A stretch of 50,881 nt of DNA from a virus, in the IMG/VR virus record IMGVR_UViG_3300017782_000027, positions 1 through 50,881 of that record. The stretch is one strand, 5' to 3'. Every line of letters starts with the position of its first letter. The stretch's first letter is position 1. Positions 3,827 through 23,449 of the stretch are shown one piece after another. The notes under the pieces are model-generated. The model was not told the DNA's origin. It searched no databases and saw nothing but the letters and a program-made list of their open reading frames with translations. The position numbers were made by a program, and so were the translations under genes.

Positions 3827-3827
3827 C

Positions 3828-5544: not shown

Positions 5545-6327
5545 CTAATATGTTAATGCGTTCTTATATTTAGGATCTACTCCTAAACCTGGAGTTCCAG
5601 TAAAACCAGCTTGAAAATTTGGAGAGATTGGCATTGGAGAATTAGCAAATTGATTAAAACTATTACCAGTTAAACTTTGTGAAGCACTATGTAAAGTAGC
5701 TTGTGATTGCTTTGCTATGTCAGATCCGAGAGTACCAGCCTGTCCTGCTTGTGATAAAAATTTAGTTTGAGCTAATTTTTTTGCACCTGCACCTTCTATT
5801 AGTGGTTTTGCATCTGGAAGAGCACCTAAAGCACCTGTTACGGATCCTGCAACTCCAGCAATACCAGCCATTGTTGCTTCCCTACCTTCAGCAAGTTCTT
5901 GTCCGAGTCCTGCAATTTCTCCTTCTTCTCTTTTCTCTTGCATCCCTCTGATATTCTGCTCTTCTTTCATCTGGATCTGCTGTATGTTAGTTTGCTGTCT
6001 ATCTAAATCAGCAGATATAGATTGCTGCACTTGTTGTTGTCCAGCCTGTAAATCTTTTGCACCACCTACAACGCCACGCACACCTCCCATACCAAGTGCT
6101 CGTACAGTATCTTTTGCTTGTCTTTGTGCTGCTAGTGTTTGCATTTCTGCACCTAACGTAGAAACTCTAAGATCTTTTGCTACGTTTTTAAGTTCTTGTC
6201 TCTTGTAATTTTCTAAAGCTTTTTTTGCTTTTCTAGCTCTTGAAGCACCACTTATAGCCTGAGCTGCACCTGCTGCTGCCGAGACACCTGCTCCAATCGC
6301 TAACGCTGTTGCTGTTGCTATTGCCAT
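5545..6327 (-). CDS. Putative internal virion protein, Ala/Gln-rich, 260 aa
   Basis: The N-terminus (MAIATATALAIGAGVSAAAG) is a hydrophobic, glycine-zipper-like stretch. It is followed by a long Ala/Gln/Lys/Glu-rich helical region (residues 30-150) and a second Gly/Ala-rich hydrophobic patch near residues 155-175. The composition and size resemble the small internal core proteins of podoviruses (T7 gp14-like), which are thought to span the outer membrane on ejection. It overlaps the acetyltransferase gene upstream by 10 bases and is followed after 4 bases by the next core-protein candidate, so translational coupling is likely. Function is inferred from position and composition; no motif proves it. 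Confidence 0.78.
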   Translation of the reverse strand: MAIATATALAIGAGVSAAAGAAQAISGASRARKAKKALENYKRQELKNVAKDLRVSTLGAEMQTLAAQRQAKDTVRALGMGGVRGVVGGAKDLQAGQQQVQQSISADLDRQQTNIQQIQMKEEQNIRGMQEKREEGEIAGLGQELAEGREATMAGIAGVAGSVTGALGALPDAKPLIEGAGAKKLAQTKFLSQAGQAGTLGSDIAKQSQATLHSASQSLTGNSFNQFANSPMPISPNFQAGFTGTPGLGVDPKYKNALTY

Positions 6328-6746: not shown

Positions 6747-7745
6747 TTAATAGGTACGGTATCTGGAGCGTATGGCATCTATGATCCATGTAGATATAAA
6801 GTATTTTTCATCTTTATTCAAACTATCAAGTTGCCATTCTGGATGTCCACACTTGTCGTGCATCCACATATAAGAAACGTAAGGAAATTTTCTTATTGCA
6901 TCATAAAGCACCTGAAGAGATTCTTGTTTGCCTGTTTTATAATTAGACCAACGCTCATCATCTTTTTCAAGTGGCCATATATCACACATGGGACCACCAT
7001 GCCAACATCTATCCCAATAAGAAGCAACTCCTACATGACTTTCAAATAGATATAGAAGATTTAATGTCATATGGAAATTTCGTCCTAAGCTGTCTATGTT
7101 GTTTTTTATAGCCTCTAATGTTAATCGTTGAAATGAAAACTCATCTCCTATATAAACTTCTTTAGTTCTAGAAGTAAATCTTTCATCATTAAGTATCTCT
7201 TGTATAATATGATTATGAGGCATAAAGTTCATCATACAATCGTTTCTAGGAAACACTGGTATGTTCTCATACCCATCATACTCTCTGTGGCTTCCTGGTA
7301 TACAATCATCTGGTTCTACTTTACTGTAGTGTGCAGTGTGAGGATCGTATGATGCACAAAAAGCATTAGACAAAGTCTTTGGACTAGGCATTTTTTGTAA
7401 AGCAATATCATCTGTGTCAACATAAGTACCACCCCATTCAGACAACAACAGTAGACGAAACAAGTCTGATCGCTCTCTTGGATGTGTATTGTTATATATT
7501 TCTTTTATTTGATCGATGTTAGAAAGGTGAGATATAGGATTATATATGTTATCATCCCACTCACGCACCAAAATTTTGTATCGTTTTTCAAATTCTTCAT
7601 CTTTTAATGAGTTTGTTATAAGATATATTGGACGCTCTGGATTCATGTACCTTGCAGAATACAAGGCATCGTCAAGAATCTTTTTCCTCTCTGGAGATAT
7701 TGGACCATCCCAGTAGAAAAATATATTGTATATATCTTTATCCAT
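6747..7745 (-). CDS. Glycosyltransferase with DXD motif (GT32-like)
   Basis: Residues 93-112 (SDLFRLLLLSEWGGTYVDTD) carry the sugar-binding DXD signature of the GT32-type family (Gly_transf_sug): R-x-x-x-L-x-x-x-GG-x-Y-x-D-x-D. The DTD at 110-112 would bind the metal and nucleotide sugar. I chose the ATG at 7745, giving 332 residues that begin right before the first strand (IYNIFFYWDG). A GTG 72 bases upstream would overlap the preceding gene by 80 bases. With the chosen start the overlap is 8 bases (ATGGATAA), fitting translational coupling. It is the last of four consecutive glycosyltransferases. Donor and acceptor are unknown; a virion protein or host envelope glycan are the main options. 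Confidence 0.85.
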   Translation of the reverse strand: MDKDIYNIFFYWDGPISPERKKILDDALYSARYMNPERPIYLITNSLKDEEFEKRYKILVREWDDNIYNPISHLSNIDQIKEIYNNTHPRERSDLFRLLLLSEWGGTYVDTDDIALQKMPSPKTLSNAFCASYDPHTAHYSKVEPDDCIPGSHREYDGYENIPVFPRNDCMMNFMPHNHIIQEILNDERFTSRTKEVYIGDEFSFQRLTLEAIKNNIDSLGRNFHMTLNLLYLFESHVGVASYWDRCWHGGPMCDIWPLEKDDERWSNYKTGKQESLQVLYDAIRKFPYVSYMWMHDKCGHPEWQLDSLNKDEKYFISTWIIDAIRSRYRTY

Positions 7746-8424
7746 TGTTTTTGTTATATTTTGCTTTGAATAGTTCTGCATCCTCAGCTTGTTGATGTCT
7801 AAATTCTCCTCTACCACTCGTAATAGATATGTCGTCTGAGTACAGGTTAAGGTTTTTAATCCACCAAGCTCCTCCTTTTACATTTTGTATAAGCCAGTCA
7901 TCACCACATGCTATTTTTAAATCTTCTGGAATAGGAACGTACATACTTTTCTTTACAAAAAACAAACATCCCCAACCCCATCCACGTTGAGTACCATCTT
8001 CTGGGTTTCTTTCTAAAACAAAGTTTTTACCTCCATCATGATTTACTTCTCCATAGAAGTTGCCTATAAACATACCTATAATTCCTAGGGTTAATTTTGA
8101 AGAGACCCATTCAAAAATAGTTAGATCATTAAAAAATATATCATCGTTCGCAATACATACATTTTCAAACTTAGCTTCTTTTACCCCTAAATTCCATGCA
8201 GGGTTAACAAATATGTTTTCTTTTAAAGAAATTGCACGAGCTTTTTTAAGGCCTCCTCTTAAACGATTAGGAGCTTCGTTAGCATTATCTATAACTAATA
8301 TCTCTCCGACCCACTCTGCCCTATCTAAATGGCTTAGAAGAGGGTGTATTCTATCCGTTTTCCACAGTGTGGGAATTATTACACTAAATTGCTGCAAGTT
8401 TGTCTTTGCTTCTGATTTGTTCAT
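7738..8424 (-). CDS. Glycosyltransferase, GT2-like (GT-A fold)
   Basis: The protein opens with a GT-A nucleotide-binding strand (FSVIIPTLWKTDRI), has a second strand EILVIDN, and a metal-binding acidic pair in CIANDDIFFND. A later WGWGCLFFVKKS and the acidic GDDWLI resemble the acceptor-side and catalytic-base regions of family 2 enzymes. I place the start at the ATG at 8424; another ATG at 8436 adds four residues (MKTI). Either start overlaps the upstream glycosyltransferase by about 40-50 bases, more than elsewhere in this cassette, and a TTG nearer the stop is also possible. Substrates are not evident. Confidence 0.75.
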   Translation of the reverse strand: MNKSEAKTNLQQFSVIIPTLWKTDRIHPLLSHLDRAEWVGEILVIDNANEAPNRLRGGLKKARAISLKENIFVNPAWNLGVKEAKFENVCIANDDIFFNDLTIFEWVSSKLTLGIIGMFIGNFYGEVNHDGGKNFVLERNPEDGTQRGWGWGCLFFVKKSMYVPIPEDLKIACGDDWLIQNVKGGAWWIKNLNLYSDDISITSGRGEFRHQQAEDAELFKAKYNKNNG

Positions 8425-9085
8425 AATAGTTTTCAATAAATTTTGGCACTAATATATACTCTCCTTTTTCTTCCATGTCTTTATCAACTCTTTCAAACAT
8501 TTCCTTTTGATCTACATCACCCATTCCAGATATATGGTAAGTGTACATTCCCCATCTATATATCATACTCATAGCGTCATACTCATGAACACTTCCATTA
8601 TGAAAAAATGTCAACCAATTATCTTCTCCGAAAGATTTGTTATCCCATTCCAGTATACCATTTATATATTTCTTAGTGTATATGTTTCCATTATTTATAG
8701 AAGAGCCTCTATCTCCGTACTCGTTATTAGAAAAAAAGTAATGTCCTTTAGACCTGTATACATCGTGATTAGGATTATTTTTTATAGCCTCAATACTATC
8801 TCTTAGAGCAAACTCTGTGAGCAAATCATCATCATCTAATCTATACATGTAATCATGAGGTGCTAGATTAAAACCAAATCTAAGTTTCTCTATAATAGAA
8901 CCAAATCGTTTGGGCACATTTATTATTGTAACATTAGGTATTGGATATAAAAGTTTATACGTTACATCTATAGCATCATTAATTACTAGCATATTACAGT
9001 CTGGTCTATTTTGTCTTAAAAAAGATTCAATAGCCTCCTCTAAAATGTGATGTCTTTTGTAAGTAAGTGTTACTACTGTTATCAT
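8384..9085 (-). CDS. Family 2 glycosyltransferase, 233 aa
   Basis: A typical GT2 N-terminus is present: TVVTLTYKRHHILEEAIESF, with the first Rossmann-like strand and helix, then LVINDA, and a DDDD tract at residues 84-87 (YRLDDDDLL) that matches the DXD metal site. The length of 233 residues is short for the family and suggests just the catalytic GT-A domain without membrane segments, so it would act in the cytoplasm of the infected cell. It overlaps the preceding glycosyltransferase by four bases (ATGA). Together with its three neighbours it forms a cassette inserted between tail genes and the internal virion genes. Confidence 0.88.
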   Translation of the reverse strand: MITVVTLTYKRHHILEEAIESFLRQNRPDCNMLVINDAIDVTYKLLYPIPNVTIINVPKRFGSIIEKLRFGFNLAPHDYMYRLDDDDLLTEFALRDSIEAIKNNPNHDVYRSKGHYFFSNNEYGDRGSSINNGNIYTKKYINGILEWDNKSFGEDNWLTFFHNGSVHEYDAMSMIYRWGMYTYHISGMGDVDQKEMFERVDKDMEEKGEYILVPKFIENYYEQIRSKDKLAAI

Positions 9086-10041
9086 ACTATTCGTGTGTTT
9101 TGCTCATCGTATACCTCTATCATATGATTTAATCCTCCTAAAGCTTTTTTTACAATTTCATAATATTTATGACCACAAGTGTTTTCTTCATACTCCCTAG
9201 TTAAATCTGGAAACGTTTCCATAAATTCTGCTTTGTAAAACTGCCTATCTTTTGAATCAGCTACTACACCTGCATTATGAAATATCGCATGCTCACCCCA
9301 ATTGTTTATACTAGATGTTGACCAAGTAAAATCCATCTCTGGCACCACCATAGTGTGCTTACCTCTTTTCCATAAGTTCCACAATACCGCCCACATATCA
9401 GAACACCATATTTGCAACTCGTGATGTGTTGGATCCGCAGCCTGCTTCTGTTGATTAAGCTCAGTAACCTCAGCAAACAATCTATTAGAATCACGCTCTA
9501 CATCCATCCAATAATATTTATCTACGTTCTTTATAAAGTATTGTGCTCCACCTGAATGCCACTGATTCTTTTTCACAGTCTCTTCATCTATTGCCATTAT
9601 ACTTAACATCTTTTCTAAAACATCACGTCCCTTTGAAAGTATATAGTCGTAACCAATATATGATATAGTGTCAGAAACGTAACAGATATCATCTCTAGAT
9701 AATTTATCCTCTGCAAGTGGTTTAACTAAAGCTATGTCACAGTCATGATAAAACACAGTGTCTGCAAACAAACTAGGGTTAGCTTCGTAATGTTTTTGTA
9801 TTATGTGAGGTCTTATACTTGAAATGTATCTCCTATCTAATCTAGTGTCTTCATAGAAAGCAAATGTAACGCCAGGATATTTACTGATCATTGTGTTAAA
9901 GTGATCGTCTACCTCACCATGTTTTGCAGAAACTATATGACAATTGTCTAAAGCTACACCTTGCTCTTTAAAAGAGTAAAGCATAACATCTATTTGCCAT
10001 GCGTAATATTTAGTGGCTGGTTGAGCACAAAGGTATTTCAT
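9082..10041 (-). CDS. Glycosyltransferase-like protein, GT-A fold
   Basis: The 319-residue product has GT-A features: an acidic YHDCDI at residues 98-103 that matches a DXD-containing strand end, a WHSGGAQYF segment of the kind that lines the donor site, and a C-terminal HNAGV strand. I do not recognise the exact family. The start at ATG 10041 lies one base after the TAA of the upstream gene (TAATATG). A longer reading with another 16 residues would overlap that gene and lacks similarity to a glycosyltransferase start. The 3' end overlaps the next glycosyltransferase by four bases. Acceptor unknown. Confidence 0.75.
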   Translation of the reverse strand: MKYLCAQPATKYYAWQIDVMLYSFKEQGVALDNCHIVSAKHGEVDDHFNTMISKYPGVTFAFYEDTRLDRRYISSIRPHIIQKHYEANPSLFADTVFYHDCDIALVKPLAEDKLSRDDICYVSDTISYIGYDYILSKGRDVLEKMLSIMAIDEETVKKNQWHSGGAQYFIKNVDKYYWMDVERDSNRLFAEVTELNQQKQAADPTHHELQIWCSDMWAVLWNLWKRGKHTMVVPEMDFTWSTSSINNWGEHAIFHNAGVVADSKDRQFYKAEFMETFPDLTREYEENTCGHKYYEIVKKALGGLNHMIEVYDEQNTRIV

Positions 10042-10042
10042 A

Positions 10043-11005
10043 TTATGGAAAGCTTTTTGAAATCTCTGAGTTGACCGCAAAGATTTCAACTGGAGATGTA
10101 CTATCGTTAACTAATTTAATATTAGCATAGTACCCTTTCAATCCATAACTTTCTGCTATTGGTGATTTAGCTCCAAAGAAAAAGTCACCTGGGTTAGGTG
10201 TAACTGTAGAGCCTCCTACCGTTAATGTTTGTGGTGTTTTAGCAGAGACAACGCCTATCTGTTGATAGGATCCTCCCTGAGCACGATATAAAGTGTCTCC
10301 TATTGAAACACTGCTTGGCACAAAATTAAATGAATAAGTTAGATTGTTGAGTAGTACTAGGTTGCCAATTCCCTGAACAGATAAAAGTTCAGTATTTGTA
10401 ATGTCTTTGTCATCACGTCTAATGTACGCATAATAAAAACCTTCTTTCTTTTTGAAAGATTCTTTGTTTACGTGTCCACTATCAAGATTAGTTGTAACTG
10501 TTATATCCCAGTCACTATTATCTCCTTCTATTTCTATTGTTTTAAATATTTTGTTTTCAGATGGTGCTGGATTAGAAACAAATCCAATCTCAGTATTATA
10601 TGCAGTTCCATAAAAAGTGTTCCTACTGCTTTCATCTGCATGATGTTTGTATAACTGACCATCCTTAAAAGTAAAAAAATCACTATTTATGTTTTGCATA
10701 AACTCAGGAACATAAGAATGAAAAGATGTCCACCCTTTGTTCATTTCATTAAATGTTATTGTGCTTTCTTGTTTATCTGATTTTTCAGGATTTACATACG
10801 CATCAGTTACAAATGGATCAGCCTCTATGGGCAAACTATAAACACCATTAGGAATGTCTGAGTTTACATCGCATTGATCCGATAAATACTTAGGTCTGTA
10901 GTCAGGATCACCAGGAACATTATTCTTTGTAATGTTTGTTGGTTTACCATTTACATACTTCCTAAGAGTTTGTACTTGTGCGTATCCTGATCTGTATTTA
11001 GCCAT
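10043..11005 (-). CDS. Structural protein of tail/neck region, crAss-like type
   Basis: The 320-residue product contains WTSFHSYVPEFMQNINSDFF followed by TFKDGQLYKHHAD and NTFYG, a combination I recall from structural proteins encoded near the muzzle gene in crAss-like and other Bacteroidota podoviruses. The rest is beta-rich with no catalytic motif. I start it at the ATG at 11005; an upstream TTG in frame adds two residues but lies inside the promoter box. The TAnnTTTG element ends three bases before the ATG, so translation may be leaderless. The four glycosyltransferases follow immediately. Exact virion position cannot be assigned. Confidence 0.72.
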   Translation of the reverse strand: MAKYRSGYAQVQTLRKYVNGKPTNITKNNVPGDPDYRPKYLSDQCDVNSDIPNGVYSLPIEADPFVTDAYVNPEKSDKQESTITFNEMNKGWTSFHSYVPEFMQNINSDFFTFKDGQLYKHHADESSRNTFYGTAYNTEIGFVSNPAPSENKIFKTIEIEGDNSDWDITVTTNLDSGHVNKESFKKKEGFYYAYIRRDDKDITNTELLSVQGIGNLVLLNNLTYSFNFVPSSVSIGDTLYRAQGGSYQQIGVVSAKTPQTLTVGGSTVTPNPGDFFFGAKSPIAESYGLKGYYANIKLVNDSTSPVEIFAVNSEISKSFP

Positions 11006-11020: not shown

Positions 11021-14000
11021 TTAACATCTATCATAATTTGGTAAGTCCTTAGCATTCCCTAACTCAGTAACAAATCCATTCTTTATATACATATAGGTGC
11101 TTTCTCTAGCTGTTTCTACTGACCAAGGCCAGTCGCCATCTGTAAATGCTTCAGTAATAGGACCCCAATCTATTCCACCCATAACATTATCTACCCAATA
11201 ATACCCATCAGGATACCCTCTACCATCTAAGTCAGCAAATATTTTCATACCGACAAGATCATTAAGTAATCTATCTTTAGGTGGAAAAGCCATCATAAAA
11301 TCTCCATACGTTGCACTCGAGAATATAGGTGCTGTACTAGCTAGATCAAAACCTAATGGCACTGGTATGGCAAAGTTGTTCTCATATGTAAGCTGTTTCC
11401 TAAACTCTTCACCATCAACGCTTGCTTGTCGTAAAAGTTTAGACCTGTCATTTGTATGATATATATCGAAATCGTAAATAAAATTCCAAGGAGCAGCAAA
11501 GGTTCGGTTTTCTACACTATCATAGTAAATGTGAAGACCAAGTTTTTCACTATTCATATAAAAAGAATAATTAGGATCGGAGGCATTTGGTTGAGTAAAT
11601 ATCCTATCTAACGTTTCATCGTGTAATATATTTATTGTTTGATTTGCGAATCCCTCAATTGTAATTGGTGTTGTTATTGTATAAACTGTTATGTCAAACA
11701 CACCATCAAACTGCACCAATTGACCACTGTTCTTAGTATAAATTATGGTAAACGCTTGATCTGATTGATACCTCATTTTTCTACACACAGTAGCTGCAGT
11801 GTACTCTAGATCATTAGGATCTACTACTATGCTAGGTGGGATTATTTCTGCAGTAGGCTCATTAGCTATTGTTGGTGCAAGTGCTTGAGGCCAAGTTGAA
11901 ACCGACCAGATGTGATTTATCAATAGCATGGGATCACCAGAAGGAGTATTGTAGTCTTCATAATAACCATTAGTAAAATAACCATATATCTCTGAGCCTT
12001 GACGTTCAGATTCTGTAACTATTACATACTCTTTAGCGACTCTCCACGAGCTTATGATATCACTAATGACTGGACTTGATGATGATTGAGAATTACTTAT
12101 CACCACCTTCCTGGCAGACTCGGTGTAAACATTTTTTCTGAACGTGTAAACAAAGTCTTCATCATCACCAGTATTAGCAATAGTTCCCCAAGTTTGTAGT
12201 CCGTAACTATCATTGTTAGGATCCTCAGCAGCCCATTCAGCAAAATCCCAGTTAACAAAATCTTTAGTCCATAACGCTTGATTCCATCTCCACGTATTGT
12301 TTGTCCCTGCTTTATTGTATTCAATACCATTAGTTTGGCGTTGGAAAAGAAATTGTTCGCCATAATGATTTTTTTGCAACGTTCCAAATTCCTCTAGTTG
12401 TGCTGCAGTCCAAGTGTTTCCTTGATTGTCTGTAAATGGTAGTGTTAATGTTGTCCAAGTAGTTCCATTATTTGTAGAAATATATATAGGCCTGTTGTCT
12501 CCGCCAGACCATCCATTGGGAGTGTAAGCATATACCGCCATAGCTTTTGAGCCAATTGCTTGTATATTTGCAACACCAAAATATCTGTTGTTATCATTTA
12601 ATAACTGACTCGTAACTTCATAATTACTCCAAGTGCTTGCGTCTCCTATTTCAGATACAGGCACAACATATGATCTACCAAGCGTTCCACCGTTAGTCCC
12701 TCTAGTATCATCCAAAAGATACATGTATCCATTTTCTATACAGCAGTTTCCGCCAACATAGAATTGCTTACTAACCGTTGCTGTATTCCAAGATACTCCA
12801 TTTCCTAAATTACTTAAATTGGATACCGATTGAAATGTTGATGCGTTTGTACTGTAATATAAATTAGAACCTCCTGAACTTTGATGTGCTAAAAAATTGT
12901 CTGTACTTCCATCGTATTCGCATATAAAATAAATAAACTGATTTGAAGTTGGAAAGGTATGTACAAGACTTTGTGAAAGCATATCGTCTGTAGATTTATG
13001 CAAAGTATTTCTTGTTGTAACCGTAGGACTATTTGGATCTACTGAAAAATACACATCATTTCCATGTGATGTTATGCTTCTAGGATAAAACCCCCAACCA
13101 GTTCCATTGGAATGTTGTTGCTGTATAGTAGCGTCAGTTTTAAAATTATAAGTAAACCAATATTGATTTTGATAAGTAGCATCAAGATCAAGCTGATAAT
13201 TTGCAAAAAAGTATGATTTACCATTTCCATAACTATTAGCACCAACATTTGCATACATTTGATTATAAGGCCCAAATGTGCTACTTGGTAAATTAGGATA
13301 CGATCCGTACACTTCTTGATCACTCCAGCTAGTACCAACTTCTCCTGTAACTAATCCTTTAGTATGATTAATAACAGGCCTCATAAGTCCATCTCTAAGA
13401 ACTTCGCCACTGTTTAAATTACTGGCATTTCTCATGTTATTGTGATTGTAATATTGAACTCCACTATACATATACAATTCACCATTGAAAGTAAAAGCTT
13501 GAGGCTCACCTTCTGGATACGTTAAATTCAAAGAGGCATTAGATGAGTGTGCTTGTGTGATTGTATAATTACTTAGATCAACTTCATATACCCAATTCAA
13601 TCCAAAATTCCATGATGCTGCGTATACTTCATCACCTGTTACTACACAAAGACCTGAAGGTTCTACTGCAAGAGATGGACCTTGGATTTGTATAAAATTA
13701 TTGACAGTACCTAAATTTGCATCGTATTCGTTAAACTCAGTATAATACTGAGTGTTAAAAGTTTTAGTAGGATTGTTGGTTCTATAAAAACGGAATGCCA
13801 ACCTTATGTCAGCTTGTGCATTACTAACACCTGTTTGACTAGGAAAGTACCTATACAACTCATACTCCTGATAAGGATATCCACTATGTTTAAATTCTTT
13901 GCATTCTATAAACAAATAATCGTGTTCTATACTTGCGTGCAAACGACCCCAATTAGTATATTTAGGATATATGTTGGCTTGACCTGTCATTTGATAACTC

Positions 14001-15376
14001 CTAAATGAATTTTTTAAATCTTCAAAACCATTATTAGTTCCATTAAAAAACTCAACTTCTGAAAATGTTTTTCCATCATCAGTTGACACACTTACTAGTA
14101 TCTGATTGTTAGCAGCACTACTAGTTTGAGGCCTATATAAAGTTAGACAATACCAAACATGTTGATTACTAGCGTTTACTCCTGCATATGCAACGTCTAA
14201 TATGCTTACATTGCCGCCAGTTTGAGAGATATAACCTCTATAAACATCAACCAAGCTATCAGTAGATGTTTGAAAAGATCTAGTTTTGTCTTCAGATCTT
14301 CTAATTATTGCGTAATTGTAAACAGTCAATATGGTTGCGTCACCTCTTTGATAACTGACCCCATAAGGCTCTATAGGCACTGCTCCTCCAGGTTTATAAG
14401 ATTCGGTATCCACTCGATGAATCCCCCATGAATATGCATTAGTAGCGGATTTTGGTATATCATAAACATTAGAACCCATGCCTCTTTGTGTTTGACCACT
14501 ATAAGCTACTAGATTTGGTTGATAACTGGCTGGTCCTCCGCCTAAAAATTCACAGGGAGCAACTTTGATAATACTAACTATACTATCTGAAACCCAAACA
14601 TTCCTATCTCCTGGCGTAGATACACATGAATCCTTATATATGACCCAATTAGCTGTTCCTCTTAAACCATTGTCAAAGATCATGCTTCCTTCTATAAAAT
14701 CTCCATTAACCACAACAGTTACTGTCCCCCAATAAATGTCTATTGAGCCACTATACACACTTGTGTTTACAGTCACTGTTTTAGAATTATTTGATGATAT
14801 TGTAAAAGGAGCTCCACCATTTATAGTGTTAGCTGAATAAAAGGTCATTGCATTTGCCTCAAGTCCTATTTGAAATGAATAAGTTGCAGTTCCTAAAGCT
14901 AAAGAGGGATACAATAATGGTTCGTATATAAAACCACTTGGAAGTGATTTAGGCCAAAACCATCCATCAAATATAGGATAATCTCCACCAGACCTGGATA
15001 CACTAAATGCTATTTGTTGTAGGCCTACATTACTAATACATCTTTCAGGAAAGTTTGCAGTAGGAAAATCTATATATGCCTCATTCATAGGCTCTTGTCG
15101 ACACTCAATATCACCTATATCATATTTTAATGTGACAATAAATGTTTGTGTTCCGTATATACCATTGCCATCACGATCAAGCCTAGAGAAGTCTGTTGCT
15201 GTATCATCATAGCTCAATACACTACCACTAGAATTGTCCCACTGACTTCCATTTATCACTAGCTCTGGAGGACCAATAAAAAGTTTACCAGAACTAGCCT
15301 TAAAACTAAATGGACCAAGCTCACCTGAACTTAATTCTCTTATAGTATAATCTTGTATGAGTACGTTGTTTGCCAT
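11021..15376 (-). CDS. Large tail protein with Asp-box (BNR) repeats, putative receptor-binding propeller
   Basis: This 1451-residue protein is rich in Tyr, Asn, Trp, Thr and Ser, as is common for secreted beta-rich adhesins and tail proteins. Asp-box motifs of the S-x-D-x-G-x-T-W/F type are seen near residue 430 (STDDGKTFSE) and residue 966 (STNNGTTWTT), with weaker ones (HKSTDD, YYSTNAST) between. Asp-boxes mark bladed beta-propellers of the sialidase/BNR type, so a glycan-binding or glycan-cleaving propeller is plausible. I cannot see a full set of sialidase catalytic residues (arginine triad), so enzyme activity is open. A double promoter box precedes the ATG. Position between the muzzle extension and a structural gene fits a receptor-binding protein. 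Confidence 0.75.
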   Translation of the reverse strand: MANNVLIQDYTIRELSSGELGPFSFKASSGKLFIGPPELVINGSQWDNSSGSVLSYDDTATDFSRLDRDGNGIYGTQTFIVTLKYDIGDIECRQEPMNEAYIDFPTANFPERCISNVGLQQIAFSVSRSGGDYPIFDGWFWPKSLPSGFIYEPLLYPSLALGTATYSFQIGLEANAMTFYSANTINGGAPFTISSNNSKTVTVNTSVYSGSIDIYWGTVTVVVNGDFIEGSMIFDNGLRGTANWVIYKDSCVSTPGDRNVWVSDSIVSIIKVAPCEFLGGGPASYQPNLVAYSGQTQRGMGSNVYDIPKSATNAYSWGIHRVDTESYKPGGAVPIEPYGVSYQRGDATILTVYNYAIIRRSEDKTRSFQTSTDSLVDVYRGYISQTGGNVSILDVAYAGVNASNQHVWYCLTLYRPQTSSAANNQILVSVSTDDGKTFSEVEFFNGTNNGFEDLKNSFRSYQMTGQANIYPKYTNWGRLHASIEHDYLFIECKEFKHSGYPYQEYELYRYFPSQTGVSNAQADIRLAFRFYRTNNPTKTFNTQYYTEFNEYDANLGTVNNFIQIQGPSLAVEPSGLCVVTGDEVYAASWNFGLNWVYEVDLSNYTITQAHSSNASLNLTYPEGEPQAFTFNGELYMYSGVQYYNHNNMRNASNLNSGEVLRDGLMRPVINHTKGLVTGEVGTSWSDQEVYGSYPNLPSSTFGPYNQMYANVGANSYGNGKSYFFANYQLDLDATYQNQYWFTYNFKTDATIQQQHSNGTGWGFYPRSITSHGNDVYFSVDPNSPTVTTRNTLHKSTDDMLSQSLVHTFPTSNQFIYFICEYDGSTDNFLAHQSSGGSNLYYSTNASTFQSVSNLSNLGNGVSWNTATVSKQFYVGGNCCIENGYMYLLDDTRGTNGGTLGRSYVVPVSEIGDASTWSNYEVTSQLLNDNNRYFGVANIQAIGSKAMAVYAYTPNGWSGGDNRPIYISTNNGTTWTTLTLPFTDNQGNTWTAAQLEEFGTLQKNHYGEQFLFQRQTNGIEYNKAGTNNTWRWNQALWTKDFVNWDFAEWAAEDPNNDSYGLQTWGTIANTGDDEDFVYTFRKNVYTESARKVVISNSQSSSSPVISDIISSWRVAKEYVIVTESERQGSEIYGYFTNGYYEDYNTPSGDPMLLINHIWSVSTWPQALAPTIANEPTAEIIPPSIVVDPNDLEYTAATVCRKMRYQSDQAFTIIYTKNSGQLVQFDGVFDITVYTITTPITIEGFANQTINILHDETLDRIFTQPNASDPNYSFYMNSEKLGLHIYYDSVENRTFAAPWNFIYDFDIYHTNDRSKLLRQASVDGEEFRKQLTYENNFAIPVPLGFDLASTAPIFSSATYGDFMMAFPPKDRLLNDLVGMKIFADLDGRGYPDGYYWVDNVMGGIDWGPITEAFTDGDWPWSVETARESTYMYIKNGFVTELGNAKDLPNYDRC

Positions 15377-15383
15377 TTATTTA

Positions 15384-15399
15384 CAAATTTACAAATTTA
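15384..15399 (-). promoter_or_regulatory. Two tandem TAnnTTTG promoter boxes
   Basis: The minus strand reads TAAATTTGTAAATTTGTAAATAA and then ATG. Both copies of TAAATTTG match the Bacteroidota -7 box. The first overlaps the TAA stop of the upstream gene. This suggests that the Asp-box protein has its own promoter. Confidence 0.45.
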
Positions 15400-18300
15400 G
15401 GTTAATGTATAGAGTGATACTGGAGTTGTTCCGTAAGCGTCAGTTAACTGTGCAACAACTGTAGCATCTTCCCATCTCACAACCACTAGGTCATCTATAG
15501 CACCTCCGCTAGAATTTATGATTGCAAAATATTTTGTAACATTTTGAGTTGGGAAACTATTTTGACCACCATTAAAATCTATATCATTAATATTTGGAAC
15601 CACACATATATTTGAACCTGGAGGCGGTGAACAATAATAACTGCTACACACGTCAAACTGAGGTCTAAAATTGTAGTAGTAAAATCCTCTTTGATCATTA
15701 GGATATTTTGCAGTTGCAAGTGGTTGATAAGTCCCAAAATACGTTTGACCTAAATCAAATATTTCTTTATCTGTTGGATAATCATCTCCCATGTTTATAA
15801 TAAAGTGATATGATTGTCTTAGCAATGTTTGTGTTAATGACTGACTAAACACTGATTTATTCATACCTCCAATGGCAGAACCATATGTTACATACAAATC
15901 GGAAGCTGCATAAACCTTAAAGAATGCATCTGAATTATATCTAGCATCTAGCGGATATTTGTCGAACTCATCATAACATCCATCATTGTCATCATCTGGA
16001 TCAAGGTGATCTGGTATACCATCGCCATCTGTATCTATAGTTGATGTAGTTGTTGTTGGGAACACTGTTGTCGTACTCGAAGTTGAGCTTGACGTTGATG
16101 TTGATGATGTCGATGACGTACTGGAAGTAGACGAAGTAGATGTTGTTGGACCTACAGGTATCGTAGTTTCAGTAGTAGACGAAGTAGATGATGTTGTTGA
16201 TGTTGCAGGAGATTCAGGACACGAAACAGTTATTACCCATGCAGTAGATGCTAATGGTGCAAATATTTGCAAGTCAAGTATCTGATAACTTTGTGGCTTG
16301 AACCATCTTATGGTCCTTTTATTAGTGGTAGTGTTTGATCCTGATATAGTTTCAGTAGCTACACCTCTATTTGTCAACTCTGTATTTAATTGAGATTGAT
16401 AACTTGGCCCACCTATATATCCAGTATCGTAAACAAGATCTCCTAAATACCTTACTATTAATTTGTCTGGTATTTGATATGTTTCAAATGTAATTGTAAC
16501 CCATCCAGTTCCTGTACCTAATATAGCTTTAGAATTACTTGGGAATGTCTGACCAGCAGAATAAGACCAATTACCTGGACAAGCTTGCTGTGGGTACGTT
16601 ATTGTCGTGGTTGGTGTTGTAGGGTTAGTTGTTGTAGATGACGTTGTTGAAGTTGGATTCGAACAGTCTCTTATATCTAACACTTCACCAGTACTTGATA
16701 TTTTTAATAACGTTTTATCTACCGTAGGACTAGTTCCATCGTTAAATTGAGATGAAGCTACAAACCAATGATAACTAACAGATTTATTCAGCGTTCCATC
16801 AAAAACAGAATGATTAAAATTCTTGACATATTCACCTATTTGAGGCAACAATCCATTCCCTGTATGTCTTTTAGCTGCTCTAAATTTAAATACATCACAT
16901 AAGAATTCTTGGAACCACTCTGTTGGTCCTCCGAATGTCTGTGCCGATTCATAATTCTCAATAGCATACCATAGGTATCCAAACCCATCGGTACCCAAGA
17001 AGAACCCTTCAGTTGGGAAAAGCGTAGTACTACTAGTGCTGCTTGTTGTTGTTGGTAATAGAGTTGTACTTGATGATGTAGATGACGATGTAGAACTACT
17101 CGTGCTAGTAGATGTTGGCGGATTTGGCTCTAAAGTTGTGGAACTTGTAGATGTACTACTAGTAGAAGTTGTAGGCTCTAGAGTCGTGCTAGAGGTTGAA
17201 CTTGAAGTGGAGCTTGATGTAGAACTAGTGCTACTTGTTGAGCTACTCGTACTAGTTGTAGAGCTACTAGTAGAACTAGACGTAGAACTTGATGTAGAAC
17301 TAGACGTAGAACTTGATGTAGAACTCGTTGGTTGCAGAGTTGTACTCGATGTTGATGATGATGTAGAAGAAGAGGTACTACTAGTTGTACTTGAAGTACT
17401 TGATGACGTACTTGTCGTGCTAGAAGACGTGCTTGATGATGTACTAGAAGATGTACTAGAAGACGTACTAGATGATGTACTAGACGAAGTACTTGAGGAC
17501 GTACTAGACGAAGTACTGGACGATGTACTAGTGGTAGGCTCTAATGTTGTTGTCGTTGTTGGACATGGACCAGCTACATTAGCACTTTGATAATATGTAA
17601 ATGCTGAAGTTGCATAATAACATAAAACATATAAACAGCTTGTGCTTCCTGCATTTAGGGTAACTATATCTCCTGGTTGATATGGAGTAGCCTCTAACGC
17701 ATTTGCCCAAACATATCCAGTACCACTTATTGTTCTTAAAAGATATACTGGATAATTATTTGTACCATCAGGATAAGATCCAGTAGGACATCCAAAAGTT
17801 GTTGTTGAACTTGTGCTAGATGTTGTTGAGCTAGATGTAGATGAACTAGTAGAACTACTTGTACTGCTTGTAGTCGTTGAACTAGACGTTGAACTAGACG
17901 TTGAGCTAGACGTAGAACTAGACGTTGAGCTACTAGTGCTACTTGTAGTTGTTGTGCTAGACGTAGAGCTAGATGTACTAGTTGTTGAGCTTGATGTACT
18001 TGTAGTTGAGCTAGATGTACTAGTTGTCGAACTAGATGTAGAGCTTGATGTCGAACTAGATGTAGAGCTTGTTGTTGTAGATGACGATGTGCTTGAAGTC
18101 GTTGTAGATGATGTAGATGTAGTTGGGCATGATGAACATATATCCATGATAGCACCCAAGTTACTTGTCCTCATTGTTAGCGGTGCAATTTTACATTGCA
18201 TCTTATCATTAGGATCAAATGAAAATCCTGAATACTGAAATACACCTGTAAAGTAAGGGATTGTTAACGCTGCATCTTGCCATATGTATCCTTGGAATGG

Positions 18301-19590
18301 AGCTAAAGTTCCAGTAAAATATAATGTTTGATTATCAAATTGAACTGCAGTTGTACACGCTGACGTACAAGTGGGTGGATTAAACGTATTACAGTGAAAC
18401 GATGCTCGATATATTGGTGTAGAAGGCGGAAGTGTTGTGCTAGTTGTTCCTAAAGTTGTCGTACTTGTGGTCGGTGCAGTCGTTGTACTAGTAGTCCCCT
18501 CAGTCGTTGTACTGGTAGTTGGTAGAGGAGCAGCAGTTGTTGAAGTTGTTGAACTTGAAGTGCTTGACGTACTAGTTGTCGATGTTGTACTACTACTTGT
18601 AGATGATGTTGTTGTGCTAGAAGTACTAGTGGTTGACGAACTTGTTGAACTTGTTGTTGTACTTGAAGTGCTTGTTGTAGAACTGCTTGTACTAGTTGTT
18701 GGTGGATTACAATCATAAATAGCAACAACATATCCGTTATTACTTACCTGAATAATTTCTTCGTAATGCGTTGTAGATAAATTAGGATTGGTTGTTGCAC
18801 CAGAATGAAACCAACAGTTTCCTCCTTGCAGCACTAAACCACTTGTTGTTCTAATTCTATCTCCTAGCTCTGGTAATGTGGTACTACCATTATGACACAT
18901 ATCAGCTAACATACGTGTTTGAACAGTACAAGCTACTGCAGGGTCTGAGTTACAATAAGGCACTGACGTACCAGTTCCTGTTCCTAAAACAAAAGGATTA
19001 CAGGTTGGTAATGTAGTAGTACTAGATGTTAATGTAGTGCTTGATGTTGTTGATGATGTCGATGATGAAGTTGTAGATGATGTCGATGACGTGGAACTAG
19101 TAGATGTTGTACTAGACGTTGTACTACTTGTAGATGAGGTTGACGTTGATGAAGTTGATGTTGTAGAAGATGTAGTGCTCGATGTGCTTGTAGTTGGATC
19201 TGGCAATGCAGTACAAGCCTGTTTATTTGTTACAACTCCATTAAATGCTATTTGTAATGCAGCCGATTGACTTTTGTAAGCATTACTGTCAGACACTGAG
19301 TACCAGCAATTAAATCCTACAAATGGTGTATATTGACCATCTATAAGCCTGTATACAGTGTCAAATATACCAGGAAGATCGTCATCTCCATTATGACAAA
19401 ATACCTCATTAAAGTAATCATACTTGTCACATGGTTTTGCTGAAGCATAGTCACTAGTGCTGCATACAAAATCTCCATTACTATCTCTACCTATATAAAA
19501 TGGTTTACAAACAAACGCTGTAGAAGTGGTGCTTGATGTACTAGTTGTTGGGCCAGGGAGAGGCTCAAGAGTAGTGGTGGTAGTGGTATC
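15397..19590 (-). CDS. Modular Cys-rich protein with mucin-like Ser/Thr linkers; probable C-terminal extension of the muzzle protein
   Basis: The frame is open from 19590, right after the T10 tract, to the stop at 15397 (1397 residues). The first in-frame start codon is a GTG at 19296, which falls inside a folded module just after a conserved NCW, so a free-standing protein from there is unlikely. The order is: Thr-rich linker; Cys module A1 (19515-19196); linker; A2 (19005-18702); linker; module YRASFHC…CSSC; linker; module GCPTG…AGPCP; long linker; A3 (17013-16654); module ACPGNW…SCPES; linker; an Asp-rich TSP3-like segment DTDGDGIPDHLDPDDDNDG (16035-15961); then a ~185-residue terminal domain. 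Linkers are almost pure Thr/Ser. The linker type matches the end of the muzzle frame upstream, which is why I join them. Likely role: exposed, flexible host-binding arms, perhaps O-glycosylated (inference). Confidence 0.75.
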   Translation of the reverse strand, partial: DTTTTTTLEPLPGPTTSTSSTTSTAFVCKPFYIGRDSNGDFVCSTSDYASAKPCDKYDYFNEVFCHNGDDDLPGIFDTVYRLIDGQYTPFVGFNCWYSVSDSNAYKSQSAALQIAFNGVVTNKQACTALPDPTTSTSSTTSSTTSTSSTSTSSTSSTTSSTTSTSSTSSTSSTTSSSTSSTTSSTTLTSSTTTLPTCNPFVLGTGTGTSVPYCNSDPAVACTVQTRMLADMCHNGSTTLPELGDRIRTTSGLVLQGGNCWFHSGATTNPNLSTTHYEEIIQVSNNGYVVAIYDCNPPTTSTSSSTTSTSSTTTSSTSSSTTSTSSTTTSSTSSSTTSTTSTSSTSSSTTSTTAAPLPTTSTTTEGTTSTTTAPTTSTTTLGTTSTTLPPSTPIYRASFHCNTFNPPTCTSACTTAVQFDNQTLYFTGTLAPFQGYIWQDAALTIPYFTGVFQYSGFSFDPNDKMQCKIAPLTMRTSNLGAIMDICSSCPTTSTSSTTTSSTSSSTTTSSTSSSTSSSTSSSTTSTSSSTTSTSSSTTSTSSSTSSTTTTSSTSSSTSSSTSSSTSSSTSSSTTTSSTSSSTSSSTSSSTTSSTSSTTTFGCPTGSYPDGTNNYPVYLLRTISGTGYVWANALEATPYQPGDIVTLNAGSTSCLYVLCYYATSAFTYYQSANVAGPCPTTTTTLEPTTSTSSSTSSSTSSSTSSSTSSSTSSSTSSSTSSSTSSSTTSTSSSTSSTTSSTSSSTSSSTSSTTLQPTSSTSSSTSSSTSSSTSSSTSSSTTSTSSSTSSTSSTSSSTSSSTSSTTLEPTTSTSSTSTSSTTLEPNPPTSTSTSSSTSSSTSSSTTLLPTTTSSTSSTTLFPTEGFFLGTDGFGYLWYAIENYESAQTFGGPTEWFQEFLCDVFKFRAAKRHTGNGLLPQIGEYVKNFNHSVFDGTLNKSVSYHWFVASSQFNDGTSPTVDKTLLKISSTGEVLDIRDCSNPTSTTSSTTTNPTTPTTTITYPQQACPGNWSYSAGQTFPSNSKAILGTGTGWVTITFETYQIPDKLIVRYLGDLVYDTGYIGGPSYQSQLNTELTNRGVATETISGSNTTTNKRTIRWFKPQSYQILDLQIFAPLASTAWVITVSCPESPATSTTSSTSSTTETTIPVGPTTSTSSTSSTSSTSSTSTSSSTSSTTTVFPTTTTSTIDTDGDGIPDHLDPDDDNDGCYDEFDKYPLDARYNSDAFFKVYAASDLYVTYGSAIGGMNKSVFSQSLTQTLLRQSYHFIINMGDDYPTDKEIFDLGQTYFGTYQPLATAKYPNDQRGFYYYNFRPQFDVCSSYYCSPPPGSNICVVPNINDIDFNGGQNSFPTQNVTKYFAIINSSGGAIDDLVVVRWEDATVVAQLTDAYGTTPVSLYTLT
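16654..17013 (-). repeat. Cys-containing protein module A3
   Basis: The encoded module runs FFLGTDGFGYLW to IRDCSNP. It is a divergent copy of A1 and A2: an LLPQIGEYV segment corresponds to LP.l.D.iR, a tryptophan follows, and it ends in STGEVLDIRDC, matching NNGYVVAIYDC in A2. Confidence 0.5.
17017..17550 (-). repeat. Ser/Thr-codon low-complexity repeat
   Basis: This stretch encodes TSSSTSSSTSST-type runs, interrupted by short TTLEPT or TTLQPT pieces. It consists of degenerate 9-12 base repeats of ACT/AGT/TCA/TCT/AGC codons. Similar tracts lie at about 16050-16215, 17800-18130, 18437-18701 and 19012-19195. Serine and threonine codons vary between repeats, which suggests selection for protein composition, though slippage and unequal crossing-over would change linker length. 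Confidence 0.85.
18702..19005 (-). repeat. Cys-containing protein module A2
   Basis: The encoded module runs CNPFVLGTG…CHNGSTTLPELGDRIR…GGNCWF…NNGYVVAIYDC. It shares C-x-PF, CHNG, LP…D..R, NCW and a terminal G-x-V…C with A1. Confidence 0.65.
19196..19515 (-). repeat. Cys-containing protein module A1
   Basis: The encoded module runs FVCKPFYIGRDSNG…FCHNGDDDLPGIFDTVYR…GFNCWYS…FNGVVTNKQAC. It aligns with A2 over its whole length. The GTG at 19296 lies within it, after NCWYS, so the module is intact only if the frame is entered from upstream. Confidence 0.65.
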
Positions 19591-22500
19591 AAAAAAAAAA
19601 GGTCGTTGATGATGACGTTGGAGGTGCTATTGTGGTTGTCGTAGACGTTGATGACGTGCTACTTGTAGATGATGTTGAAGTTGGTGGAGCATCATCGTCA
19701 TATATCAACTCACAAGTTAGAGTGTCTGGTCTCCATTCTGAATAAGACCCCTGTAAAGACACAACATACTCTCTATCATGTGGATCATACCCACCTAGTA
19801 TTCTGTATGGATCTTTATTTTTTAGTCGATCTCTAAAATAATCAACCATGCCAAAATCAGATATCTGCTCTATGCCATCTTGAGAAAGCCTACATACAGC
19901 ACCTCTTCTTTCGTCAACAAAATATAACCGCCCACCCCATAAAGAAACTGAGAATGGATGTCGTGTAACACCAAACTCTCCAGCATATGGTACGACAGTT
20001 CCTAGTATATCTGTTGAAGCTCCTACATTTCCAGAGCCATCCGCATTGAATAGTATATTTTTGTTAACAAGCACCCTTGACACTCTGTTTTCTTGGAAGC
20101 TAATAACATCTGCACCTCTTGGAACAATTCTATTTATGTCTCCATACTCGTCATCTAGATCTTTATAGTTAAGATCAGCAAGACTAAAATCATTTAATGC
20201 GTTAAATTTTGTTGATTGTTCGTATACGCCACTCCATGTAATAGAAGTAGTTCTAAAAGATTTTTTATACTCTTGTAAGTTAGTCAGAGGTTTTGTATCA
20301 AGCTTATATACTGGAGCAATAAACAAGTCTCTTATTGCTATACTTTCTATTGCATTAGCAAATCCCCATGCATTATAATACGGAACCTCCACCGTACAAG
20401 GACTCGTGCTAGATTGACTTATATCAACTACATCACCAAATTTTAAATTAAAATTTTGCGTGCCAGTAAATGTTCCTGTTCCACTTACGTAGTTAGTAGT
20501 ATCCATTGGCGAAGCTAAACTTCCAAAAGCAAATAGACTTATTCTTACACCTCCAGTTATATCGTATCTTTGATATTGATGAACTCTTAATAGTATTTTA
20601 GCACCGTTATCCTGACTTAATTCTAAGATCTTACCGCCACCATCTCCAAAACCTGCATTGCCTGGACCGACACTGTTAGAGAAATAATCTACGAATGTGT
20701 TATATGCAGCAGATGGTATCGCTAACTGAATACTAAAACTTCTAGAAGATCCTCCAGTAAATGGATTTGCACCCACACTACCAAAGTCTGTCCAGTCATC
20801 ACTAGCCACAGGATCATTAATGTTCACAATTCCAATCGTACTTACAGTACTTAGATTTGTAGAGCCTGGTGTTAACGTTTCAGTAATTTGCGGTATTTGT
20901 CCAGCTTCAGAAGCTTGCCCAGTGTGATACCCATTAGTGATATCATATGTATAAGGCGTTTCATAATACAATTCTGTTGTATCCTCAACAGGTTTTGTTT
21001 CAAAACAAAGCTCATCCGTAGAAGCTCTTTTTACTATTCTAGTTTTGTTTGCAATTTTAGCTCTAGAATCAAAATCATTATTCTGCGTACCAAGCGATCT
21101 AATTATAAGATGAATTGGTTCTGTGTTTGCTCTAGTAGATTCTAATGCTGTGCTTGTTGATCCATATACACCTCTTTCAAAAAACACTCTTGATTCTCCA
21201 AACTCAGTGTCAAAAATACCTTTTGCATTACTTTCAAAATACCATTCCTCTAAGTTTGCATAATTGCCATTAGCAGTGAACTCATACGTCCAGAACTGTG
21301 TAGATTCATTGTATTCATCGTACTCTAAGTTTATAATTGTACCTGCTCTAATAGCCTCCTCTGCAACTGGCAGGCCTTTAAATGTTGAGTAAGCTTTACT
21401 GTTTCTTGGGTAACCAGGATTAGCAGGTTTTAAGGTAGATGTATATTTATCGTTTGTGTCGTGCCCTGTGTCAGCTCCCCATTCTATTGTAATACCTGTA
21501 GTTCCTAATGCATGAGGATTACCTGGTGTCATGGTTATTCCTGTTCCTGACTGCCCAGTAGTTTGTCCATCATCTAAGAAGTCAACTGCCCATGTAAAAG
21601 TGTCGAACGTACTTATTCCGTCTCCAGTTCCATCTACAGTAACAGTTAGCCTTGCGTAAGAACTTTCACTATAAGTTCCAGCTATTGTAAGATCATTTCC
21701 TGCTGCAGATGTTGATCCATAATAAAATGGTCCAGTTGCTTTTGCAGGCAGGCTTGAGTATCCTGATAAAGGATTATCTCTATCATTACCAGTTGTATCT
21801 AAATCACTATTTTCATATAAATCATAGTCATCCAAGGTCATTCTAAAACCAACTGGCTTGATCTTCATATACACACCAGATGGTTGTGCTATTGGTGGAT
21901 CACCTGATTGTGGGTAATTAGCATCCTCTAAAAAGTTTACTTCTTTTGATTCAACCTCTAATACTTTTGTTTCTACTAATGTTGTTTTTTGCCCACCTGT
22001 ATCAGCTTTTACAATAATAAAATCATCTGCTTTTACTTTGTTTACATCTGTAGCATTAAGTAAAACATATACAAACCCTGTATCATTATCTATCCTAAAA
22101 ACTGCAGGAATTATATTATGATAACTTTGTTTTGTTTGCTTTACAAAAAACCTATATTTAGTTGCAAACTTTGGTGGCAAACTATTAATGCTTACCTGTA
22201 ATTTATTTTGACTTTTAGATAATGTTGGATCTACATATACAGAGTTTTCGGTTGAAGTAAGCACCGTTGTAGATCTACCAAACTCATCCAGATAGACAAT
22301 ACCAACTTCTAGATCTCTATTTGTTTTAAGAGATGTGTAAGCTACACCAGTTGTTTGTGGAGTGGAGTTTATAGAGGGCGTAAAGTCTATATTAATATCA
22401 TCTCCATTCCTATCTTTAAGATCAAAGTTTTCTGTATAATTAGCATACATTACACGATTGTCTACAATCGCTTGACTTCTAGCAGTTAATGGCACGTTGT

Positions 22501-23449
22501 CATAATACCTCTTTAGTTCTCTGCTGCTTAGGAGCCTATATATTTTACTATTATCAAAAGTAAATTGATATGTAGAGTTGTCAGAAATACTTTTCTTTGA
22601 CTTATCAAAACTATCTATTAGGAATATAGTATCATCACCAAATACCTTAAATACTAAATCTATTTTTGAAACTTTATCAGTACCAGTATCCATGGTAATT
22701 TGAGCAGAGTTAAACTTGTTTAACATCGACTCATTAGAAGATATTCCGTAGTCAAAAGAAAAATCAAAAGGCTGAAATGCTACTTCTGAAAAAGGAGACA
22801 AAACAGAATATTCACCACTTTGATACTCCCACCTGTAAGCGAATGAAATAAACTTTTCTTTAATGTTGTTTTCTTTAGACGTTGGTGTAGTCTGTAACAA
22901 CAATCCTGGAGGAGATAATGGCGGCTTTTTAATTACTGTTATTTCTTCTTCTAAAAAACCACTTGCGGTAAACAGCTTCGCTTTGTTGACATTTATTTTT
23001 CTAGGGTTATTTATGCCATCCGTAAAGAACAACATTATAATGTCATTATCATTATCATACAGTATGTCTGACTGTATATAATCTGACTTAGAGAAATTTA
23101 ATACGTTTTCATTACCAGCACGAGTATCTTCTAATACCATCGTGGCAACCTCATTATCTAAATCATATTCAGCTATATACGAACCATTGTCTGATCTAAT
23201 AAACCACCAAATTTTATTAAGAGAATCGTCAGCAACAGAACCAATACAAACTGCGTTAGTTCCAAAATCAAGTTCAACAGATGTTGTTACCGCTTCATTG
23301 GATAGAGAATTTTCTAATGCTCCCACACCAGATGTAGACGAACTGATAACCTTTGCGTTTAAGGCATATCTATATTCACCCTGTTGAATTAGACGCTCAT
23401 CAGCGTCTCTATTCATTTTCCCTGATGTAAATACGTTTTTAGACTCCAT
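19589..23449 (-). CDS. Muzzle/stabilization-type tail protein, crAss-like, 1286 aa before frameshift
   Basis: The N-terminus KNVFTSGKMNRDADERLIQQ with GEYRYALNAKV shortly after is the signature I recall for crAss-like 'stabilization' or muzzle proteins, the counterpart of the T7 gp12 nozzle. The body is beta-rich with SIRDLFIAPVYK and HPFSVSLWGGRLYFVDERRG segments suggesting propeller blades, and a domain near DPYRILGGYDPHDREYV. The last ~40 residues are a Ser/Thr-rich linker (STSSTSSTSSTSTTTT) ending in FFF at the T10 tract, then TGA. The gene follows the ring protein with a one-base overlap of stop and start. It closes the podovirus tail tube. A longer form including the Cys-rich modules is likely made by frameshift or slippage, giving about 2683 residues. 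Confidence 0.82.
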   Translation of the reverse strand: MESKNVFTSGKMNRDADERLIQQGEYRYALNAKVISSSTSGVGALENSLSNEAVTTSVELDFGTNAVCIGSVADDSLNKIWWFIRSDNGSYIAEYDLDNEVATMVLEDTRAGNENVLNFSKSDYIQSDILYDNDNDIIMLFFTDGINNPRKINVNKAKLFTASGFLEEEITVIKKPPLSPPGLLLQTTPTSKENNIKEKFISFAYRWEYQSGEYSVLSPFSEVAFQPFDFSFDYGISSNESMLNKFNSAQITMDTGTDKVSKIDLVFKVFGDDTIFLIDSFDKSKKSISDNSTYQFTFDNSKIYRLLSSRELKRYYDNVPLTARSQAIVDNRVMYANYTENFDLKDRNGDDINIDFTPSINSTPQTTGVAYTSLKTNRDLEVGIVYLDEFGRSTTVLTSTENSVYVDPTLSKSQNKLQVSINSLPPKFATKYRFFVKQTKQSYHNIIPAVFRIDNDTGFVYVLLNATDVNKVKADDFIIVKADTGGQKTTLVETKVLEVESKEVNFLEDANYPQSGDPPIAQPSGVYMKIKPVGFRMTLDDYDLYENSDLDTTGNDRDNPLSGYSSLPAKATGPFYYGSTSAAGNDLTIAGTYSESSYARLTVTVDGTGDGISTFDTFTWAVDFLDDGQTTGQSGTGITMTPGNPHALGTTGITIEWGADTGHDTNDKYTSTLKPANPGYPRNSKAYSTFKGLPVAEEAIRAGTIINLEYDEYNESTQFWTYEFTANGNYANLEEWYFESNAKGIFDTEFGESRVFFERGVYGSTSTALESTRANTEPIHLIIRSLGTQNNDFDSRAKIANKTRIVKRASTDELCFETKPVEDTTELYYETPYTYDITNGYHTGQASEAGQIPQITETLTPGSTNLSTVSTIGIVNINDPVASDDWTDFGSVGANPFTGGSSRSFSIQLAIPSAAYNTFVDYFSNSVGPGNAGFGDGGGKILELSQDNGAKILLRVHQYQRYDITGGVRISLFAFGSLASPMDTTNYVSGTGTFTGTQNFNLKFGDVVDISQSSTSPCTVEVPYYNAWGFANAIESIAIRDLFIAPVYKLDTKPLTNLQEYKKSFRTTSITWSGVYEQSTKFNALNDFSLADLNYKDLDDEYGDINRIVPRGADVISFQENRVSRVLVNKNILFNADGSGNVGASTDILGTVVPYAGEFGVTRHPFSVSLWGGRLYFVDERRGAVCRLSQDGIEQISDFGMVDYFRDRLKNKDPYRILGGYDPHDREYVVSLQGSYSEWRPDTLTCELIYDDDAPPTSTSSTSSTSSTSTTTTIAPPTSSSTTFFF
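19591..19600 (-). other. T10 homopolymer, candidate slippage/frameshift site
   Basis: On the minus strand the sequence is ACGACC, ten T, then GATACCACT. The upstream frame reads Thr-Thr-Phe-Phe-Phe and stops at TGA. Loss of one T, or gain of two, gives Thr-Thr-(Phe)n-Asp-Thr-Thr-Thr and keeps the same Thr-rich linker going. Homopolymers of nine or more T or A are established sites of transcriptional slippage and of replication-based phase variation. A base-calling error in the tract is the competing explanation. Confidence 0.7.

Follow-up and report, generated by a model that had tools for sequence, protein, structure and literature searches.

The extensions that frameshifting adds to the structural proteins of phages T3/T7, A2 and the Listeria phages are short. 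In the T3/T7 coat protein, lactobacillus phage A2 and Listeria phages PSA, A118 and A500, some virion subunits gain a C-terminal domain (Ig-like and other) by recoding at the end of a short ORF, the same arrangement that is proposed here, and relatives of phages with frameshifted structural proteins may encode the extension in frame, as is also found here (PMC5009743). Those phages use ribosomal -1 or +1 shifts, whereas the locus described here has a T10 tract in a muzzle protein gene, followed by a mucin-like extension of 1400 residues. Bacterial release factor 2 (RF2) shares with this locus a U-rich codon beside a UGA and entry into the +1 frame, although it has a Shine-Dalgarno (SD)-like element and a highly conserved C after the UGA and needs no long T run, while here a T10 run is present, no SD-like element is found and the base after the UGA is U (PMC5009743). 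Polymerase slippage is represented by tssM1, from the type VI secretion system of Citrobacter rodentium, in which a poly-A tract gives about 20% shifted product and both forms are needed (PMC4256274). As is proposed here, one structural protein is made in two lengths owing to a homopolymer close to a stop codon, but tssM1 is bacterial and its poly-A gains an A, whereas the phage poly-T would lose one U. In phi-crAss001 the muzzle protein gp44 forms a hexamer (structure 7qok; PMC10172136); the homology covers gp44 residues 1049-1284, and gp44 is one polypeptide, whereas here its conserved C-terminal part is encoded by a gene apart from the core, to which a putatively recoded extension is added. 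Domain-adding recoding is already known for coat and tail-tube proteins, and what differs here is the poly-T tract and the split muzzle gene; the literature searched contained no case of a muzzle gene with a conserved slippage site that adds a mucin-like stalk of about 1400 residues.

The window (the whole stretch of DNA analysed, 50,881 nucleotides, positions 1 to 50,881 of the IMG/VR virus record IMGVR_UViG_3300017782_000027) contains the features collected in the table. An earlier note on this DNA had described a T10 run between a muzzle frame ending in FFF-stop and a long Thr-rich frame, and this observation is confirmed. The core ORF ends in STSSTSTTTTIAPPTSSSTTFFF followed by TGA, with SSTTFFF-TGA lying at the T10 (19600-19591, minus strand). 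Removal of one T gives FFF-DTTTTTTLEPLPGP / FFF-DTTTTTTLEPLPGPTTSTSS, a frame that continues the same type of Ser/Thr linker and is open from its GAT codon to the end of the extension. The 98 codons without ATG, GTG or TTG reported in the earlier note are confirmed: the earliest such codon in the extension is the GTG at 19296 (codon 98), inside the first Cys module, and the earliest ATG is codon 226. The note also spoke of an adjustment of one base, to 9 or 12 T; both lengths do reach the extension frame, but the changes are -1 or +2, and insertion of one T (11 T in the window) leads to a frame that closes within a few tens of codons. Three other candidates were rejected: a -1 frameshift, whose frame closes after tens of codons; reassignment of TGA to tryptophan, the 0 frame beyond the TGA being full of other stops; and an A8 at 5576 (counted along the minus strand), which was flagged by the frame-transition scan and sits just upstream of a start codon. 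A T10 is not by itself improbable in this AT-rich genome, as 38% of codon-order shuffles of its coding sequences contain a T run of at least 10; the significance of the tract comes from its conservation, and for this reason the question was asked in relatives.

Table. Features of the muzzle cluster and of the giant structural gene in the window, with the evidence for each.
Feature	Coordinates	Strand	Evidence or remark
T10 tract (coding strand)	19591..19600	-	proposed slippage site; within the longest invariant block (15 nt) of five genotypes
0-frame TGA next to the T run, end of the short form	19589..19591	-	kept in 5/5 relatives
Muzzle core ORF (short form, 1286 aa)	19589..23449	-	PHROG 14478, E 3e-241
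Shifted-frame extension of 1397 codons (46% Ser+Thr), putatively in the long form only	15397..19590	-	third-position-biased substitutions in 10/10 genotype pairs
First Cys module, right after the first linker, holding GTG 19296	19210..19515	-	alignment A2: C28, C54, C65 and C126 invariant in five genotypes
Module also found in the muzzle extension of Cellulophaga phage phi13:2 and in jumbo phages XacN1, CM1 and RAS14	16210..16524	-	blastp 6e-5 (phi13:2), tblastn 9e-11 (XacN1)
C-terminal part: DTDGDGIPDHLDPDDDNDG, which by eye resembles a thrombospondin-type-3 Ca motif, and a terminal domain	15397..15978	-	63% identical in the closest relative
Separate 1451-aa ORF between the extension and the split-off muzzle C-terminus	11021..15376	-	the closest relative has a homologue in this position, 42% identical
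Conserved C-terminal domain of the muzzle as a gene of its own, ATG at 11005	10043..11005	-	PHROG 28748 (gp44 family), 3.7e-6
Four glycosyltransferase-like ORFs adjoining the muzzle cluster	6747..10089	-	PF00535 4e-13 and PF04488 4e-9 for two of them
In-frame coding-strand A10 where the N-domain meets the linker in the giant structural gene (2..3868)	3510..3519	-	second conserved homopolymer

The name muzzle protein, already used in the earlier note, is borne out by the family profile, which matches phi-crAss001 gp44: the alignment of fused homologues (A3) aligns with gp44 residues 1049-1284 with an hhalign probability of 94.7 (E 6e-8), the identity of gp44 being checked against PDB 7qok, and the window core alone gave no match in PDB. 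The gene order is portal, two small structural genes (PHROG 14543 and 13977) and muzzle, to be compared with the gp43 ring followed by gp44 in crAss001, and the source phage clade is related to the crAss-like phages. The conserved domain of about 240 residues that phi38:1, elemo, Gundel and contig L018 carry in frame behind the core lies 8.6 kb downstream of the core in the window and is also separate in four contigs of the clade, so that the window protein is a split homologue rather than a single polypeptide. Inserted modules break up this C-terminal domain in contigs L031, L033 and L055. In phi13:2, ctfjg026, L022, L023, L025, L028 and L054 the C-terminal domain is separate and the core continues in frame into an extension; the nearest of these is L054, with a core 50-55% identical and one ORF of 2491 codons, although its stalk is made of Asp-rich Ca-type repeats and not of Ser/Thr. 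Since these seven relatives, all outside the clade, have extensions in frame at the same place, an extension there is usual in the wider group, and what is peculiar to the window's clade is that it appears to be reached through a conserved slip.

A search of IMG/VR with the 336 C-terminal residues of the core retrieved five contigs, 68-78% identical in the core. Two of them (L007 and L008) are nearly identical and, therefore, five genotypes were counted as independent (the window and four further ones), which belong to one clade and constitute a small sample. Megablast found no DNA relatives among phages, and none were found in genome contigs or in plasmids. In 5/5 relatives the 0 frame reads NNN TTT TTT TTT TGA TAC, and the shifted frame resumes the same linker and Cys module. 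The run is ACC-T10 in the window and L006 and GA-T11 in the other four contigs, and the frame relation is unchanged, since the additional T comes from the third position of an altered codon (GAT). All members consequently carry a homopolymer of at least 8 A/T at the frame transition, the threshold for slippage sites being taken from PMC3711429, and both the run and its frame relation are conserved across the divergence. The 15 nt of TTTTTTTTTTGATAC form the longest block invariant across the five aligned genotypes and the sole one of at least 7 in a 215-column alignment around the T run, of which 40% of the columns are invariant, so that it is the nucleotides themselves that are conserved; FFF is absent elsewhere in the extensions of the aligned genotypes. 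When all of IMG/VR was scanned for the pattern T10-GAYACNACNAC, the five known contigs and no others came back, while no in-phase T9 version was found in IMG/VR (the matches, L061-L063, are unrelated and non-coding), nor any T12 copy. Substitutions in the shifted frame are third-position-biased in every one of the ten pairs (1/3/20 by codon position between L009 and L010, 19/12/50 between L008 and L009), with pN < pS over the first 105-108 codons, from which we infer that the shifted frame is translated from the T run onward. The aligned extensions have no start codon at a column common to all genotypes. The earlier note had suggested comparing fused with split forms in related genomes, and all five contigs proved to be split and in the same out-of-frame phase; a second part with its own conserved start, which would have spoken against its reading, was looked for in the homologues and is absent.

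These data make it probable that T10/T11 is a programmed, conserved recoding site at which slippage of RNA polymerase provides a short and a long form of the muzzle. Most transcripts would be copied faithfully and give the short core ending in FFF-stop; in some of them the polymerase would slip on the T run, dropping one U (or adding two), and the slipped transcript would be read as FFF-DTTT, yielding a protein of about 2680 residues whose Ser/Thr-rich stalk carries the Cys modules. The muzzle ring of the virion would then be mixed, with some bare subunits and others with long, possibly glycosylated, adhesive stalks. For E. coli RNA polymerase, deletion slippage of about 10% has been measured at T8, increasing with T length, and none at the A runs tested (PMC6260861), a figure for the E. 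coli enzyme, while a Bacteroidota or a phage polymerase may transcribe the muzzle gene. The main competing explanation, which we regard as unlikely, is a programmed +1 ribosomal frameshift, in which peptidyl-tRNA-Phe on UUU slips +1 at UUU_UGA, a slow stop, to GAU, or a -2 shift within the run. Every member has UUU UGA, that is, a slippery codon beside the 0-frame stop, and in Listeria phages a second form of tail and coat proteins arises by +1 shifts at CCC_UGA (PMC5009743); the conserved UGA beside the run is what a ribosomal shift would require, and it counts against slippage. However, UUU_UGA would suffice for such a shift, yet a fast-changing linker has retained 10-11 T with three TTT codons. 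RF2 genes rarely use UUU_U, a weaker site, and the C after their UGA is highly conserved (PMC5009743), whereas a T (U) is found here. No purine-rich SD-like element lies just 5' of the tract, where the sequence is ATCAACGACC or ACGACTACGG, and a search for conserved RNA structure found none shared at the tract (z-scores of 0.08, -2.0, -0.2, -1.0 and -0.9); ribosomal shifts usually depend on such stimulators. Slippage is preferred because the run is longer than UUU_UGA needs and is kept nonetheless, because neither an SD-like or structural stimulator nor the C after the UGA is present, and because E. coli RNA polymerase does delete a base at T8 (PMC6260861).

Of the three options left by the earlier note (slippage, phase switch and base error), it is slippage that is favoured. 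Replication-based phase variation, by which the length of the T tract in the DNA would toggle the extension on and off, is very improbable: homopolymers this long are mutable and adhesins with Ser/Thr stalks are plausible phase-variable products, but all genotypes are in the same off phase, without the differing phases among relatives that switching would produce, the T11 form occurs in two contigs from different samples and T9 or T12 copies are missing from IMG/VR. This single out-of-frame phase, together with the lack of an in-phase T9, is what disfavours switching. The same holds for two separate proteins, with the extension started at an internal codon of its own, for which the GTG at 19296 would be available, since the third-position bias and the conserved residues begin at the T run itself; the first possible starts fall at differing columns among the homologues, making an independent start unlikely, and in the window the first ATG comes only far into the extension. 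Homopolymers are also error-prone in sequencing and assembly, although a base error is excluded in practice, because independent contigs agree: the five others, which come from several samples, have the identical phase. Returning to polymerase slippage, its occurrence and rate, the presence of both forms in the virion and the binding target of the stalk are what we infer.

The extension matched no Pfam or PHROG family, and the predicted fold of its first Cys module is poor (mean pLDDT 55.6); it may contain host-binding modules. The jumbo phages XacN1, CM1 and RAS14, with which one of its modules is shared, are Xanthomonas and Stenotrophomonas phages. Its high Ser+Thr content, the adjoining glycosyltransferase-like ORFs and the restriction of PF00535 to the clade (5/5 clade genomes searched against 0/9 relatives outside it, several of those records being fragments) suggest that the stalk may be glycosylated by phage enzymes. 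These glycosyltransferase-like ORFs overlap, and several have TTG or GTG starts. The 1451-aa ORF that follows the extension is of no known family and seems to be fast-evolving, its flanking muzzle parts being 69-87% identical in the closest relative as against 42% for the ORF, and it could perhaps be a fibre.

A second homopolymer is found in the giant structural gene, which runs off the contig: its A10 lies about 116 codons from the start, after a variable N-terminal domain and before a linker, and A9-A11 runs occupy the equivalent position in 18 other sequences (19 with the window). An in-frame A10 is present in G001, G003, G005, L018, L030, L054, L055, elemoA/D, phi38:1, Calle_1 and Gundel, and an A11 in ctfjg026, whereas five isolates (Panino, phi13:2, phi18:3, phi19:3 and phi46:3) have an out-of-frame A9, and in these the annotated giant protein begins at an unlikely GTG or TTG downstream of the real N-terminal domain. 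Elsewhere the run lies at 13675 in L011, 15988 in L015 and 3007 in L057; it is absent in L022, L023, L025, L028 and crAss001. An equal A-run length arises from two different codon registers. The N-domains of Gundel (A10, in frame) and phi13:2 (A9, out of frame) are similar, while those of phi13:2 and phi18:3 are unrelated, although the giant protein, annotated as detected by MS/MS in phi18:3, is 95% identical between these two past the A9 run, an apparent module exchange at the homopolymer. The N-modules of this pair (L015 15839-16120 and L057 2810-3133) are joined exactly at the A9 run. The peptide (V/L/E)KK(K/N) is conserved in itself, including in sequences with a short run (L031, A7) or none, and, therefore, selection at the protein level may explain part of the A-run conservation. 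A homopolymer miscall could account for the A9 of the older Cellulophaga genomes, and Panino is an independent A9 case. We propose only tentatively that this phage group uses long homopolymers as seams between conserved virion proteins and exchangeable modules, where slippage would make both forms whatever the frame in which a module lands, with a base lost at T runs (muzzle extension) and a base gained at A runs (giant protein).

If this interpretation is true, gene callers miss large parts of the tail-tip proteins of crAss-like phages, which lack a start codon and are in the wrong frame, and the muzzle would be a case in which polymerase slippage sets virion composition, open to direct test. 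The A9 seam occurs in cultured Cellulophaga phages and is, hence, testable there.
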